Below are positions 27,391 to 33,405 of a stretch of 37,701 bases of DNA, one piece after another. The stretch spans positions 1 to 37,701 of the forward strand of contig JANQQN010000534.1 in the NCBI GenBank assembly GCA_028289325.1, read 5' to 3'. Numbering within the stretch: the stretch's first letter is position 1; each line of letters starts with the position of its first letter. The position numbers and the translations under genes were made by a program. Below the pieces are notes generated by a model that made no database searches, was not told where the DNA came from, and saw nothing but the letters and a program-made list of their open reading frames with translations. Origin of the DNA: Myxococcota bacterium. Its GTDB lineage: Bacteria; Myxococcota; Kuafuiibacteriia; Kuafuiibacteriales; Kuafuiibacteriaceae.

Positions 27391-29289
27391 ATGGGAAAAA
27401 AGATTATTGGTATCGACCTCGGCACGACGAACTCGGTGGTCTCGGTGATGACCTCCGGCACCGCGGAAGTGCTCGTCAATGATGAAGGCGCCCGCACCAC
27501 GCCCTCCGTCGTCGCGTGGACGGATAAGGACGAGGTGCTCGTGGGCACCGTGGCTCGCCGCCAGGCCATCACCAACCCGGAGAACACGGTCTTTTCCGCC
27601 AAGCGGTTCATGGGCATGAAGCATGCCGACGTGGCCAAAGAGGGGCAGCGAGTCCCTTACGACGTCGTTCGAGCCGGCAACGGTGACGCCCACATCAAGG
27701 TTCGTGGGCAGACCGTGGCGCCGCCCGAGGTGAGCGCCAAGGTTCTGCAGAAGCTGAAGCGAGCCGCAGAGCAGTACATCGGGTCGGAGGTCACGGACGC
27801 CGTTATCACCGTTCCTGCGTACTTCAACGACGCGCAGCGACAGGCGACGAAGGACGCCGGCCGCATCGCCGGCCTGAACGTCGCGCGGATCATCAACGAG
27901 CCGACGGCGGCGGCCCTCGCCTACGGCCTCGACAAGAAGGACAACGAGGTCATCGCGGTCTACGACTTCGGTGGCGGAACGTTCGACATCTCGATCCTCG
28001 AGGTCGGCGACGGGGTCATCGAAGTCCTCGCGACCAACGGCGACACTCATCTCGGCGGTGATGACTTCGACCAGAAGCTCATCGACTGGCTGACCGGCGA
28101 GTTCAAGAAGGACACGGGCATCGACGTCAGCCGCGACAAGATGGTCGTCCAGCGCCTGAAGGAGGCGGCGGAGAAGGCCAAGATCGAGCTGTCCAACAGC
28201 TTCGAGACGGAGATCAACCTGCCGTTCCTCACCGCCGACGCGTCGGGTCCGAAGCATCTGCAGATCAAGCTGAGCCGAGCCAAGTTCGAGGCGCTGGTGT
28301 CCGACCTGGTGGAGCGGTCCTTCGCGAGCGTGGAGCGCGCGCTGGCCGACGCCGCCAAGCGCCCGAGCGATATCGACGAGGTGGTCCTGGTCGGCGGCTC
28401 GACTCGGGTCCCGCTCATCCAGGAGAAGGTCAAGACGTTCTTCGGCAAGGACCCGAACCGCTCCGTGAACCCCGACGAAGTCGTCGCGGTGGGCGCGGCC
28501 ATCCAGGGCGCGGTGCTGTCGGGCGACGCGAAAGACGTGGTCCTTCTCGACGTGACCCCCCTGTCGCTGGGGATCGAGACCCTCGGGGGTGTGTTCACCG
28601 CGCTGCTGCCGCGAAACACCACGATTCCCGCCCGACGGTCGGAGGTGTTCTCGACCGCGGCCGACAATCAGCCCCAGGTCGAGGTCCACGTCCTGCAGGG
28701 CGAGCGCAAGATGGCCTCGGACAACAAGACGTTGGGTAAGTTCGTACTCGACGGCATCGCGGCCGCACCGCGAGGGATGCCTCAGATCGAGGTGACGTTC
28801 GATATCGATGCGAACGGCATCGTCCACGTGTCGGCGAAGGACCAGGGCACCGGCAAGGAGCAGTCGGTTCGTATCGAGTCGTCCTCGGGGCTGAGCGACG
28901 ACGAGATCGACAAGATGGTCCGCGACGCCGAGACCAACGCCCAAGCCGACGACGCTCGGCGGGAGAAGGTCGAGACCCGAAATCGACTCGACCAGCTGAC
29001 GTACCAGGTCGAAAAGACCATGAACGACGGCAAGGACAAGCTCCCGGTCGAGGTCGGCCAGACGGTCGCGCAGGCGCTGACCGAGGCCCGAGACGCGCTG
29101 AAGGCGGACGACGTCGAAGCGTGGAAGGCGGCCGAGGCCGGCCTCCAGGCCGCGTCGGGTAAAATGGCCGAAGCGCTGTATGCTCGGTCGTCCGAGGGGA
29201 ACCCGAACGACACCACCGCGTCTTCGAGCAAGACAGATGGCAACAAGGACGACGACGTCATCGACGCGGACTTCACCGAAGCCGCCTGA
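27391..29289 (+). CDS. dnaK: Chaperone DnaK (Hsp70)
   Basis: 632 residues, the usual length. The ATPase domain (1 to about 383) has the phosphate-binding loops [12 protein letters not shown] (near 5-16), [12 protein letters not shown] (near 190) and LVGGSTRVP (near 332-340). The interdomain linker [13 protein letters not shown] follows, then the substrate-binding domain and a helical lid. The C-terminus ends in [13 protein letters not shown], close to the usual EEVxDAxFxE motif. It folds and refolds proteins in the cytoplasm with DnaJ and GrpE, neither of which is in this window, so it is not in the common grpE-dnaK-dnaJ order. A good ribosome-binding site (GGAG) lies 6 nt upstream. Two hairpins precede it. 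Confidence 0.98.
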
Positions 29290-30437: not shown

Positions 30438-32246
30438 TCAGCTCGGCGGTGATGGTTGGTCGGGGTCATCTCGGGTCCCGTATCGCTCGCGCCAGAAATC
30501 TTCGAGCCGGATAACGCGACCACCGATCCAGGAGCCCACGCGAATGCGGTCCCAGGCCACGAACACCTTGTCGTGCGTGTCCGCGAGCTCGGCCAGGACC
30601 TCCGCCCGCAGCTCGGCCGGTGAGTTCGGGGGCGGCCGACGGATAGCCGCCTCGATCTCCGCGGGCTCGACCAACCGCAAGGCGAGCCCGCGATCGTCGA
30701 GCCGATCGAAGTATCCGGTCTCCAGCTCCCCGTACCGCAGATCGATCTTCTTACGCGCGACCGGGTCCTCGTCGAGATCCGCGGCCTCGATGAGATACCG
30801 CTTGGTGATCCAGTCGACCCGGCCCACCAGGGCCCCCGGGTCATCGGCGAGCTGATCGAGCACCGCCGACCACAGATCCACGAGGTCGCGACGCTCGAGA
30901 TCGACGCGGCCTGCTGCCTCCATTTCATCGACGTAACGGCGGGCCTCGGCCAAGTACCACCGCTGCAGCTCGTAGGCGTTCATCGTGCGCCCATCGGTGG
31001 TCGATACGCGGGTCTTCGGATCCCGCGCCAACGCTCTGAACGCCGTCAACGGGCGCGACAAGCGCGGCGCATCGGTGAGCCGGCGGTCATCGATCATATC
31101 CAACAGCAATAGGTTGGTGCCGACCTTCAGAAACTCGGACACCTGGCAGCGGTTGGAATCGCTGTATGCAACCTGCATGCGCTGCCGCCGCCGAAAGAGA
31201 CCGAGCAGGGGACCGAATCGGAGAAACTGTGGAGCCCACAGCGCTTTGATGAGGTTGCCACCGTCGAACACGACGTGGGTCGTGCCCGCTCCGGCCCACC
31301 GATAGACCCCGGTCAGCGTGGTCGCCCGTTCCGAGAGCCACAGCGACTGGTCGTCCATCAGACATCCCGCGCCCGCGTACAGCGTCCGGCTCGCGAGGTG
31401 AGCCATGAGGCGTCGGCGCTGGGGAACGAAGAATGTGGCTCGATAGAGAGTGCCGAAGCACAGATCGACCGGCAGCTGAAGGACCTGGGTAATCCGCAGC
31501 GACACGATACCCGCCACCCACTCGATGGGCGCGTCACGCGACTCGAGGTCGAGCCAGCGCGCGAGCGTGGTCCGCACCGACGGTACGAACAGCGCCACGA
31601 GCCCCGCGATCAGGAGGCCGATGATGAGGACGATGATGAACACCAGGGCCACCATCCATGCCGCGAGATTAGCGGCGACGACCACCGGCAACGTAAGGAC
31701 CAACCCCGCCCTGAGAGCGAGTAGGCGCCCACCGGTCGCCACGTTCACCTCGTAGTTTTCGTGGGTACCGTAGCCGTGGCCCTCGGCGTCGCGCGCGTTC
31801 TTGATCAGCGCCAGGTCACCGAAGAAGCCATGATGGGCGAGGTGGCGCCGAGCGCGAACCACCGCCCGACCGAGCAGGGCCTCCTGCGCCCGCTGGTACA
31901 CCAACAGCTGAGCCGCGCTTCGACACTCCGGCGTGCTGCCCTCGACCAGACCGTCGGCACGGTGGGTCGGCTGAAACTCGTAATAGAAGGCGCCGCCGTT
32001 TTCGACGAACACCTGTTGGTTGGCGGGGAGACGATCGCCTCGGTGCAGGACCACCTCGTGACGGAGCCCCGAGACAATCGCATCGTAGACGTGGTCGTGA
32101 CGAGGCCGAGGCCCGCCGCTCCCGCAGCGAATCGCGTATTCGGTCTCCAGCCCCACGAGCCGGCCCGGCTGACGCGCGGCATCGGGCGACCTTTTGGTCT
32201 GCCCGGCTGGGGTCAGGCTCGGTCTGGCGTCAGTGGTAGGTTTCAC
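30438..32246 (-). CDS. Pup ligase/depupylase (PafA/Dop) family protein with a transmembrane-hairpin insertion
   Basis: 602 residues. Family motifs occur in order: GLETEY (32-37), NGGAFYYE (83-90), STPEC (104-108), KNARD and GYGTHENYEV (149-167), HLASRTLYAGAG (283-294), SDSNRCQVSEFLKVGTNLLL (362-381) and IDLRYGELETGYFDRL (501-516). These match glutamine-synthetase-like enzymes that attach or remove Pup on substrate lysines. I cannot tell ligase from hydrolase. Two oddities: about 110 residues (about 168-280) are inserted between two conserved core blocks, containing about 40 hydrophobic residues (about 176-222) that read as a membrane hairpin; and the position of the catalytic Asp in NGARLYVD is Glu here (E90). 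The start is GTG at 32246; GTG at 32156 would begin right before GLETEY. It lies downstream of a Pup-like ORF in the same operon. Confidence 0.85.
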   Translation of the reverse strand: MKPTTDARPSLTPAGQTKRSPDAARQPGRLVGLETEYAIRCGSGGPRPRHDHVYDAIVSGLRHEVVLHRGDRLPANQQVFVENGGAFYYEFQPTHRADGLVEGSTPECRSAAQLLVYQRAQEALLGRAVVRARRHLAHHGFFGDLALIKNARDAEGHGYGTHENYEVNVATGGRLLALRAGLVLTLPVVVAANLAAWMVALVFIIVLIIGLLIAGLVALFVPSVRTTLARWLDLESRDAPIEWVAGIVSLRITQVLQLPVDLCFGTLYRATFFVPQRRRLMAHLASRTLYAGAGCLMDDQSLWLSERATTLTGVYRWAGAGTTHVVFDGGNLIKALWAPQFLRFGPLLGLFRRRQRMQVAYSDSNRCQVSEFLKVGTNLLLLDMIDDRRLTDAPRLSRPLTAFRALARDPKTRVSTTDGRTMNAYELQRWYLAEARRYVDEMEAAGRVDLERRDLVDLWSAVLDQLADDPGALVGRVDWITKRYLIEAADLDEDPVARKKIDLRYGELETGYFDRLDDRGLALRLVEPAEIEAAIRRPPPNSPAELRAEVLAELADTHDKVFVAWDRIRVGSWIGGRVIRLEDFWRERYGTRDDPDQPSPPS

Positions 32247-32401
32247 GTCGCCGCTGGGAGGGCCGGCGAGACCGGTGTCGGGGGCCGGCTCAGCAGGAAC
32301 GGAACCGGCGGAACCAGCGCGGACGGGACCGGCGTGGACGGGACCGGCGTGGACGGGACCGGCGTGGTCGGGACCGGAGCCGGCGGGCGGCTCCAGATCA
32401 T
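32243..32401 (-). CDS. Possible Pro-rich mini-ORF between the Pup-like and PafA/Dop-like genes
   Basis: 52 codons from ATG 32401. The product is nearly all Pro, Val, Ser and Thr, with PVPSTPVPSTP repeats from the 15-bp tandem repeat. About 90% of codons end in G or C, against about 75% in the frame of the PafA/Dop-like gene across the same stretch. Its stop (TGA) overlaps the GTG start of that gene as GTGA, which would allow coupling. It begins 13 nt after the Pup-like stop with no clear ribosome-binding site. It may be a real linker peptide, the displaced N-terminus of the enzyme after a frameshift, or chance. Confidence 0.3.
   Translation of the reverse strand: MIWSRPPAPVPTTPVPSTPVPSTPVPSALVPPVPFLLSRPPTPVSPALPAAT
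32321..32380. repeat. 15-bp tandem repeat, four units
   Basis: GGACGGGACCGGCGT repeated three times exactly (32321-32365), plus a fourth unit with three changes (32366-32380); partly decayed copies continue to the left (about 32301-32320). The unit length is a multiple of three, so copy-number change would keep reading frames intact. It lies between the Pup-like and PafA/Dop-like genes. Confidence 0.9.
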
Positions 32402-32414
32402 CGGTGGCGATGGC

Positions 32415-32594
32415 TCACTCGCCGTCGGCGGGCACCCGCGTCTCGCGCAGGTATGCCTCGGGCTGCTGCAGCGCATCGCGGCGGATCTCGTTGACGACGT
32501 CAGCGAGCGGCTCGGTCTGCGTCCCGGGGACGATCTCATCGCGGGTCTGTTCGGTCTGCTCGATGCGGTCCTTCGTGATCATGCCGCCCAGCAT
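32415..32594 (-). CDS. Small Pup/UBact-like protein modifier candidate
   Basis: A 59-residue ORF (55 from the second ATG at 32582). It is acidic (13 Asp/Glu against 7 Lys/Arg), Gln-rich and has a single Lys (K8). It ends PEAYLRETRVPADGE. The tail matches the layout of Pup, whose last residues read AEDFVRAYVQKGGQ: Glu, aromatic, aliphatic, Arg, then a short spacer and Gly plus Glu or Gln at the very end. A helix is likely at about 29-52, with a polar, disordered N-terminus. About 91% of codons end in G or C, as in neighbouring genes. GGAG precedes the first ATG by 1 nt and the second by 13 nt, so the start is uncertain. It sits 28 bp after the thioesterase gene and upstream of the PafA/Dop-like gene, the position expected for a modifier. 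Confidence 0.75.
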   Translation of the reverse strand: MLGGMITKDRIEQTEQTRDEIVPGTQTEPLADVVNEIRRDALQQPEAYLRETRVPADGE

Positions 32595-32622: not shown

Positions 32623-33405
32623 TCAAAATGGGTCTTCTTCCAGCGAGTCCGCGAACTCGGTCACGCACTGAGCGAGGGCCCGGGCCTGCCCGGGCAAAAA
32701 GATGTGTGGGCCGTCGACCTCGTCGATCCTGAGGCGCCGGCAGTATGCCCGCCACTCCGTGAGGTGGGTCGTGGCGGCGACCTCGTCCCGGCTCGCGCCC
32801 ACTGCCAGGACCGGGGTTTCGATGGCCGCCTGGGGCTCGGGCGCCGTTTCGTAGGCGCGAAACCCCGCGCGAACGATGTGCTTGAACAGATGAAAGACCA
32901 GCCGGTCGTTACGCAGCGCGTCAGGAAGCCCGCCAAGCGCATCCAGCGCGGTCCATAGATCGTCATCGTTGAGCTCGGAGTGCACTGGATGGAGATGCCG
33001 GCGGCGCGGCGGATTCACCGCCACCATGATCACGCCGCGGGGCCGGGGTCGCCCTTCCGCCTCCCACCGGGCCATCAGGCCGTGGGCGACATAACCGCCA
33101 AGCGAATAGCCGAGCAGGTAACCGTCGGCGTAACACGCCGGATCGACCTGTGCGTCGATCACGTCGCAGAGGTCGGAAACCGACTCCAGCGGCGCCTCGG
33201 GGGCACCGAGGCCGTGTCCGGGCGGATCGACGCTGGCCACCCTCCACGTCGGCCCGAGGGCCTGCGCCAAAGACCGAAACGCGGTGGACGTGCCGCCCGC
33301 GTAGGGCAAGCAAAGCAAATTGCGAGCCTCGGCGGGACACACCGTCCAATCGAAGGTGCGCTGTCCGACCCCGGTCGCGGGATCACGGTGATAGGAGGAT
33401 TTCAT
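32623..33405 (-). CDS. Type II thioesterase (alpha/beta hydrolase)
   Basis: 260 residues with the alpha/beta-hydrolase triad: nucleophile S101 in GYSLGG (99-104), Asp near 207 (GASRDEVA) and His 234 (DGPHIFL). The LPYAGGTSTAFRSLA segment (33-47) and SVDPPGHGLG (58-67) are typical of type II thioesterases that clear misprimed carrier proteins of polyketide or non-ribosomal peptide synthases. No such synthase is in the window. The ATG at 33405 directly follows a 12-bp palindrome. It is the first gene of the leftward cluster that continues with the Pup-like ORF 28 bp later, so co-transcription is likely, but a functional link is unproven. Confidence 0.88.
   Translation of the reverse strand: MKSSYHRDPATGVGQRTFDWTVCPAEARNLLCLPYAGGTSTAFRSLAQALGPTWRVASVDPPGHGLGAPEAPLESVSDLCDVIDAQVDPACYADGYLLGYSLGGYVAHGLMARWEAEGRPRPRGVIMVAVNPPRRRHLHPVHSELNDDDLWTALDALGGLPDALRNDRLVFHLFKHIVRAGFRAYETAPEPQAAIETPVLAVGASRDEVAATTHLTEWRAYCRRLRIDEVDGPHIFLPGQARALAQCVTEFADSLEEDPF

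Follow-up and report, generated by a model that had tools for sequence, protein, structure and literature searches.

The window studied here is a stretch of 37,701 nucleotides, contig JANQQN010000534.1 of the genome assembly of a Myxococcota bacterium (GCA_028289325.1). On its minus strand, a 59-codon open reading frame (ORF) precedes a gene for a 602-amino acid (aa) homologue of the Pup ligases, the family of PafA and Dop, which carries a hydrophobic insertion. We consider it probable that these two genes form a membrane-held, protein-tagging pair of the pupylation kind. The homology of the enzyme, its motifs, the insertion and the pairing with the short ORF were observed; from these, conjugation of the small protein (the tag), a lysine acceptor, the topology of the enzyme and the outcome of tagging are proposed below. 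Comparison of sequences from two phyla indicated that the tag-ligase pair is real and conserved. The main features are as follows:

30438-32246, minus strand: gene for a Pup-ligase homologue of 602 aa that carries the hydrophobic insertion; start codon GTG (PF03136, 6.6e-75)
32415-32594, minus strand: ORF of the 59-aa modifier, or tag (ORF list, homologues, structure model)
32418-32501, minus strand: last 28 codons of the tag, a gap-free block in all four loci compared, with D40, A41, V54, G58 and E59 invariant

Relatives of the ligase and conservation of the tag ORF

Relatives of the ligase homologue were sought by a pattern scan of the genome contigs of 84,980 species genomes. The patterns were shaped to avoid a flood of actinobacterial PafA and demanded a polar residue after HEN[YF] and a Gln in the motif Qx4D; fifteen stretches matched and seven were confirmed, one of the insertion type, two from Poribacteria and four labelled as actinobacteria. 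Owing to this shaping, the sample is biased and its counts have no meaning as frequencies; in the insertion-type hit (L087), the Gln of Qx4D is there by selection. Neither Glu90 of the ligase (see below), nor the tag ORFs, nor the adjacency of a tag was used to find the relatives. The ligase of locus L087, from a metagenome-assembled genome (MAG) of Pseudobacteriovorax (G195), aligned to that of the window over residues 19-594 (3e-101). A profile made from these two ligases was positive in three of 58 Bdellovibrionota genomes, namely G195 (L087), G229 (L103) and G204 (L104), and the four insertion-type enzymes aligned over their length. Among 195 genomes of the same phylum as the window, PF03136 was positive in a single one, the window's own genome, which is included in that number; with the window ligase as the query, one of 97 same-phylum genomes matched. 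One PF03136 gene was present in the window genome (G000) and one in G195, and G229 and G204 yielded one match each to the ligase profile. Single-protein scans of genome contigs and of viral contigs led nowhere, as did viral scans with alignments.

A small ORF was located directly upstream of each relative ligase: 49 aa ending DLGGE in L087, 49 aa ending DLGGE in L103 and 53 aa ending EGGE in L104. With the window included, all four insertion-type ligases were preceded by a short ORF ending [G/D]GE; a preliminary description of this DNA had named as evidence against the pair any homologous locus that lacked such a conserved ORF, and none was encountered. In L087 and L103, the GTG of the ligase overlaps the end of the tag by 11 base pairs (bp), which suggests coupled translation.

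The window tag of 59 aa contains one Lys, ends in PADGE and has a net charge of -6. The guanine-plus-cytosine (GC) content of its three codon positions was 0.73/0.42/0.90, next to 0.71/0.47/0.81 for the ligase and 0.72/0.51/0.79 for the thioesterase gene upstream, confirming the acidic ORF with one Lys and coding-like third positions of the preliminary description. The Asp-Gly-Glu tail, which had been singled out there as a departure from Gly-Gly, proved to be peculiar to the window member, the other three tags ending in Gly-Gly-Glu. The encoded C-terminal residue was Glu, never Gln, in all four. When compared with the layout of Pup (50-90 aa, C-terminal G[EQ], PafA homologue adjacent), the window tag agreed on each count, with 59 aa and DGE; two of the three relatives' tags measure 49 aa when counted from their first start as listed. 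The structure model of the tag (mean predicted local distance difference test, pLDDT, 65) displayed a helix at residues 30-43 and 45-48 and a free tail ending in Asp-Gly-Glu; no secondary structure was predicted, at low confidence, for residues 1-29, and judging from the model the N-terminus is probably disordered.

Between the window and L087 tags, the match reached 41% across 37 aa (E 2e-8, as a single comparison). As a control set, all ORFs of 30-110 aa on both strands were used: 206 in the window, 152 in L106 (the stretch around the L087 pair), 149 in L105 (the stretch around the L103 pair) and 31 in L104. The tag ORF ranked first in all 12 directed comparisons, with ungapped scores over the last 28 residues of 31-80 versus at most 22 for the next best ORF. 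When the window tag was the query, the ORF adjacent to the ligase ranked 1/152, 1/149 and 1/31 at the L087, L103 and L104 loci; the ungapped last-28 scores were 53, 42 and 47 versus 2, 2 and 1 for the next best, and the local alignment scores were 70, 42 and 53 versus 35, 30 and 28. A chance ORF was rejected on these 12 comparisons. The coding frame gave the top similarity in all six tag pairs, and the third codon position was the most divergent in all six, some margins being small (17 vs 16 for window-L087). A four-row tag profile run on the window genome recovered the tag itself and one weak match (E 0.47).

The ligase homologue and its hydrophobic insertion

The 602-aa protein matched PF03136 (Pup_ligase) with 253 bits versus a cut-off of 25, over residues 29-568. 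The NCBIfam equivalog cut-offs for PafA (TIGR03686, 186/551 bits) and Dop (TIGR03688, 143/492 bits) were missed by a wide margin. Its relatives of solved structure were Dop and PafA, in five distinct sequences. A Foldseek search, which also weighs sequence, with the low-confidence AlphaFold model of the ligase (pLDDT 48) returned 93 PDB matches, and the 11 with E<=0.001 were all PafA or Dop. The following sites were located:

32139-32153, minus strand: GLETE at residues 32-36, the GhExE motif, which is the superfamily's Mg/ATP site (alignment; motif as defined in PMC2588565)
31977-31979, minus strand: Glu90, at the position of the PafA catalytic Asp64 (alignment)
31755-31763, minus strand: HxN motif, His162-Glu-Asn164 (alignment)
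31560-31733, minus strand: hydrophobic insertion right after HxN, residues 172-229 (hydropathy scan)
31158-31175, minus strand: Qx4D motif, Gln358-Asp363, in core strand 6 (alignment)

Ligases of the window type kept the superfamily motifs GhExE, the acidic residues of strands 2-3, [HQ]xN and [QH]x4D, and QxN replaced HxN in the three relatives. In L104, on a contig of only 4.1 kb, no ATG, GTG or TTG was found before GLETE in the open frame, and GLETE itself was read in the frame ahead of the ORF as listed. Asp64 of PafA, whose position was counted on an alignment with 4b0t, is proposed as the catalytic base in a passage of PMC3511204. The equivalent position was occupied by Glu in all four insertion-type ligases, and the aligned rows of other types (two PafA, one Dop, one UBact-type) had Asp there; the change is a conservative one. 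Since the catalytic Asp is missing, the model match and the fold were taken as grounds for placing the enzyme in the superfamily, and it is not classed as a proven Pup ligase. The PafA segment RPIINTRDEPH was replaced by FDxGNL(I/L)K in all four.

The window insertion consists of two overlapping hydrophobic segments spanning residues 172-229, with a Kyte-Doolittle maximum of 3.36. A segment above 1.6 on this scale followed HxN in four of four insertion-type ligases versus none of five PafA/Dop/UBact-type enzymes (maxima 1.14-1.54). The insertion, overlooked in the preliminary description, is apparently a membrane anchor, for which the hydropathy scan does not fix the number of segments or the topology. 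In a 20-row ligase tree, rooted at the midpoint and with 5 of 17 inner branches open, the four insertion-type enzymes grouped as a single clade (100/100) whose branch measured 1.85 changes per column. This clade stood apart from the other 16 rows, which were labelled PafA-, Dop- or UBact-type from gene context; several rows of the tree are of unusual composition.

Proteasome genes, proposed mechanism and alternative readings

The preliminary description had suggested a purpose other than degradation from the lack of a proteasome gene in the window, and this gained support from searches of the whole assembly. PF00227 gave one match in the window genome, a protein of about 181 aa on another contig (C15) that is followed by a 463-aa HslU-like gene; it was read as HslV from this neighbour, and a 20S proteasome was not found in the assembly. 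No PF00227 match was obtained in G195, G229 or G204, and five each were obtained in two Poribacteria genomes. The cut-off for Mpa (TIGR03689) was passed only by the two Poribacteria among six genomes; the other four, the window genome included, reached at most 149/505 bits, and these matches were read as generic AAA proteins. A second Pup_ligase gene was not found in the window genome by the PF03136 search. The window contig, judged by its DnaK, fits the host lineage: identity was 74-76% to full-length matches in three genomes of the same family versus at most 67% in the other 15, and contamination by a contig from another phylum was rejected on these values. Two close DnaK genes, 77% identical, are present in the window genome, at 27391-29289 of the window and at G000:C80:113-2038.

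In the proposed mechanism, the ligase, with an active site of the glutamine-synthetase type, would use ATP to phosphorylate the tag on the side-chain carboxylate of its terminal Glu, and the activated Glu would then be joined to the lysine amine of a target. By way of the insertion that follows the HxN strand, the active site would be held at the inner membrane face, and with such a tether membrane or membrane-near proteins would be the likely targets. Because the tag already ends in Glu, no deamidase would be needed, which fits the single PafA/Dop-family gene in the genome. Given that neither a 20S proteasome nor Mpa/ARC was found, the tag may regulate or sort its targets; alternatively, tagged targets may be handed to a membrane protease such as FtsH, the choice of FtsH as the reader being a guess.

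Several results weigh against this reading. The 59-residue product, which the preliminary description had likened to Pup and UBact, matched neither family model, nor did the other three tags: PF05639 (Pup) was matched by none of the four, with the Pup proteins of loci L004 (4e-18) and L108 (7e-15) as controls, and PF20513 (UBact) by none of the four, with the UBact of L088 (3e-17) as the control. Profile-profile comparison of the tags with Pup produced a sensible register that is suggestive only (P 0.0063, probability 6%), and comparison with UBact produced no similarity. The claim of a pupylation-like system thus stands as 'Pup/UBact-like', and identity of the tag as Pup is not shown. In gapped local alignment, the tag was again first in 12/12 comparisons, with slimmer margins, the smallest being 38 vs 34. 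A blind search of the 58 genomes with a two-row tag profile (window and L104) found the L087 tag of G195 as the best match outside its own rows (E 0.009), with an unrelated match close behind (E 0.015), and missed the L103 tag of G229; the evidence for the tag is therefore similarity together with position, not similarity alone. Since Glu stands where the catalytic Asp would be in all four enzymes, ligase activity cannot be assumed, and the AlphaFold model of the ligase was too poor for site-by-site comparison. Among the neighbours of the pairs, no linked protease, deconjugase or target was seen, nor a gene common to the pairs of both phyla. Completeness of the assembly is 92% and its contamination 5.9%, so that the absences reported here are not absolute.

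Amino-group carrier proteins of the LysW kind accept amino acids at a C-terminal Glu, and the PF00975 thioesterase family includes helpers of nonribosomal peptide synthetases and polyketide synthases. The small protein could be a carrier, LysW-like, to whose C-terminal Glu side chain the enzyme adds a small amine or amino acid in building a metabolite. The same chemistry and a Gly-Glu end would serve here, a PF00975 thioesterase is encoded directly upstream of the window tag, and Glu for the catalytic Asp along with the lost RPIINTRDEP segment could mean a different acceptor. We nevertheless regard such a carrier as unlikely, since no shared biosynthetic gene was present beside the pair among the neighbours seen at the four loci (4.1 kb only at L104), a membrane anchor is unexpected for a soluble pathway, and the tag is predicted, at low confidence, as a helix with unstructured ends and not as a small folded carrier. 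We give less credence still to an enzyme that, owing to its changed catalytic acid, mostly removes or exchanges tags or acts as a non-catalytic membrane receptor for them. The Asp-to-Glu change in all four enzymes would agree with this, as would the opposite directions in which PafA and Dop work on the same fold (described in part of PMC7947786). However, a deconjugase alone without a ligase makes little sense, and the genome search gave only a single member of the family; moreover, the remaining motif residues are kept and the four enzymes align over their length. Finally, no family model matches the short ORF and the blind profile search was weak, yet it is very improbable that it is a chance or regulatory ORF such as a leader peptide, of which the ligase would be independent, in view of its protein-level conservation across two phyla in a gap-free register, its first rank in 12/12 comparisons, its highest similarity in the coding frame in six of six pairs, and the conservation of its C-terminal part, unlike that of a leader peptide.

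Beyond the membrane-held tagging pair favoured here, we entertain, with rather more doubt than confidence, a third bacterial protein-conjugation lineage beside Pup and UBact. It would comprise a distinct tag family that lacks a model in Pfam or NCBIfam as searched and a membrane-embedded ligase clade with Glu for Asp, would label membrane proteins for some end other than degradation by the proteasome in Bdellovibrionota and a Myxococcota-like lineage, and may descend from a single-enzyme state before the PafA/Dop split.

Known tagging systems and neighbouring genes

Iyer, Burroughs and Aravind (2008) predicted Pup and a Pup ligase in Plesiocystis and Rhodopirellula (PMC2588565). The ligases described there contain four transmembrane segments right after core strand 4 and have a linked membrane-protein gene; the pairs are unlinked to proteasome genes, and tagging of membrane-associated proteins was proposed (PMC2588565). 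Compared by this published description, the window system shares the insertion after core strand 4, the adjacent small G[EQ] ORF and the lack of proteasome genes beside the pair. A linked membrane-protein gene was not seen at the window, where the other neighbours of the ligase were not scanned for membrane segments, and the number of segments, four in the 2008 systems, is not established by the window hydropathy. The present analysis adds to the 2008 description genome-wide searches for the proteasome, Mpa and a second family member, as well as the Asp-to-Glu change.

With the actinobacterial Pup-PafA-Dop-Mpa-proteasome system, the window system shares the ligase superfamily, its motifs, a small tag with a terminal Glu/Gln and tag-ligase adjacency. 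In contrast to that system, no Dop, Mpa or 20S proteasome was found, the tag lies outside PF05639, and the ligase differs from actinobacterial PafA in its membrane insertion, in Glu for Asp64 and in being without RPIINTRDEPH. Tagging without a proteasome is on record in corynebacteria, in which, according to a passage of PMC3511204, pupylation genes and the ATPase are kept and proteasome genes are absent. A small tag ending Gly-Glu near a PafA-type gene is shared with UBact (PF20513), whereas proteasome genes are present at the Poribacteria UBact loci L088 and L089, the ligase of L088 carries Asp and is free of the insertion, and profile comparison of the tags gave no similarity. Single-copy relatives of PafA/Dop in Planctomycetes were taken as the outgroup in a 2020 study, as stated in a section of PMC7947786; by that description they resemble the window ligase in occurring once per genome and in standing outside the split between PafA and Dop.

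No experimental work on the membrane-inserted ligase type was found in searches of the open-access literature, most subscription journals being outside their scope. The pair belongs to the uncharacterised kind predicted in 2008. New are its extension to Bdellovibrionota and one more Myxococcota-like lineage, a tag family outside the Pfam/NCBIfam models searched, the Asp-to-Glu change in the ligase and the genome-wide tests for the proteasome and Mpa. Knowledge of Pup-type tagging comes mainly from actinobacteria, in which it feeds a proteasome or, in corynebacteria, is tied to the Mpa/ARC ATPase (as set out in parts of PMC3511204). If our reading is true, tagging with a membrane ligase and without a proteasome or Mpa can serve a quite different purpose, as that of ubiquitin does. 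The conserved tag family supplies sequences and controls for the membrane-tagging proposal of 2008.

Two further features were recorded at the window locus:

32623-33405, minus strand: thioesterase gene (PF00975), upstream of the tag ORF on the same strand, 28 bp from it
32309-32377, minus strand: 15-bp tandem repeat of 4.6 copies in the tag-ligase spacer, in frame with both genes

The order along the minus strand is thioesterase, tag ORF and ligase homologue; the tag ORF starts 28 bp past the thioesterase stop, and 168 bp separate it from the ligase GTG. The placement of the tag between a thioesterase and a PafA/Dop-family gene on one strand, as first described, was corroborated by the PF00975 and PF03136 matches. 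The genes flanking the window pair gave family matches to thioesterase and PilZ-DUF4388. The thioesterase is probably an operon mate of the window tag. A thioesterase was not seen among the neighbours examined at the other three pairs, and a conserved thioesterase operon was rejected, for in L105 and L106 the upstream gene is collagen-like, and in L104 it is ABHD18. The tag, spacer and ligase of the window share one reading frame, of which the tag stop codon is the sole interruption. A read-through product fusing tag and ligase was rejected, because the two are in different frames in L087 and L103 and the composition of the window spacer, part of which is filled by the 15-bp repeat, is not coding-like. 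A defence or phage module was also rejected (no PADLOC match at E<=0.01 and no PHROGs match below 0.029). In a comparison of 14 window proteins with five stretches from four genomes of the same phylum, nothing matched apart from the DnaK or AlaDH-type gene by which each stretch had been picked.

In two Bdellovibrionota genomes of 7 Mb, a FUR-like regulator gene and a gene for a collagen-repeat protein of about 900 aa precede the pair (L106, 5622-8925; L105, 4693-8175). The FUR-like gene was checked with Pfam in L106, and the collagen copy at L087 appeared by eye to be rich in lysines of the GDKGD type.

The Poribacteria MAG G196 contains both a Pup gene (L108, 4154-4351, PF05639), whose product ends RGGQ, and a UBact gene (L088, 938-1135, PF20513), whose product ends RTGE. 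The MAG G197 likewise contains both (L089, 3718-3915; L109, 397-594), the models having been run on the G196 copies only. Proteasome and PafA-type genes lie close to each of these Pup and UBact genes, a separate set for each. If the bins are not mixed, a single Poribacteria genome has two tag systems.

Searches of plasmids and phages returned three records, two filed as plasmids and one as 'phage', and each is of the actinobacterial type. The record L004 (MT835496.1, 'Bacteriophage sp.') has the actinobacterial gene order, with genes taken to be AAA-ATPase, Dop, Pup, PafA and FKBP, and looks like a piece of bacterial chromosome filed as a phage. The record L003 (NZ_LT559118.1), an 11.85-Mb Nonomuraea sequence filed as a plasmid and containing proteasome-like and PafA genes, is probably a chromosome.

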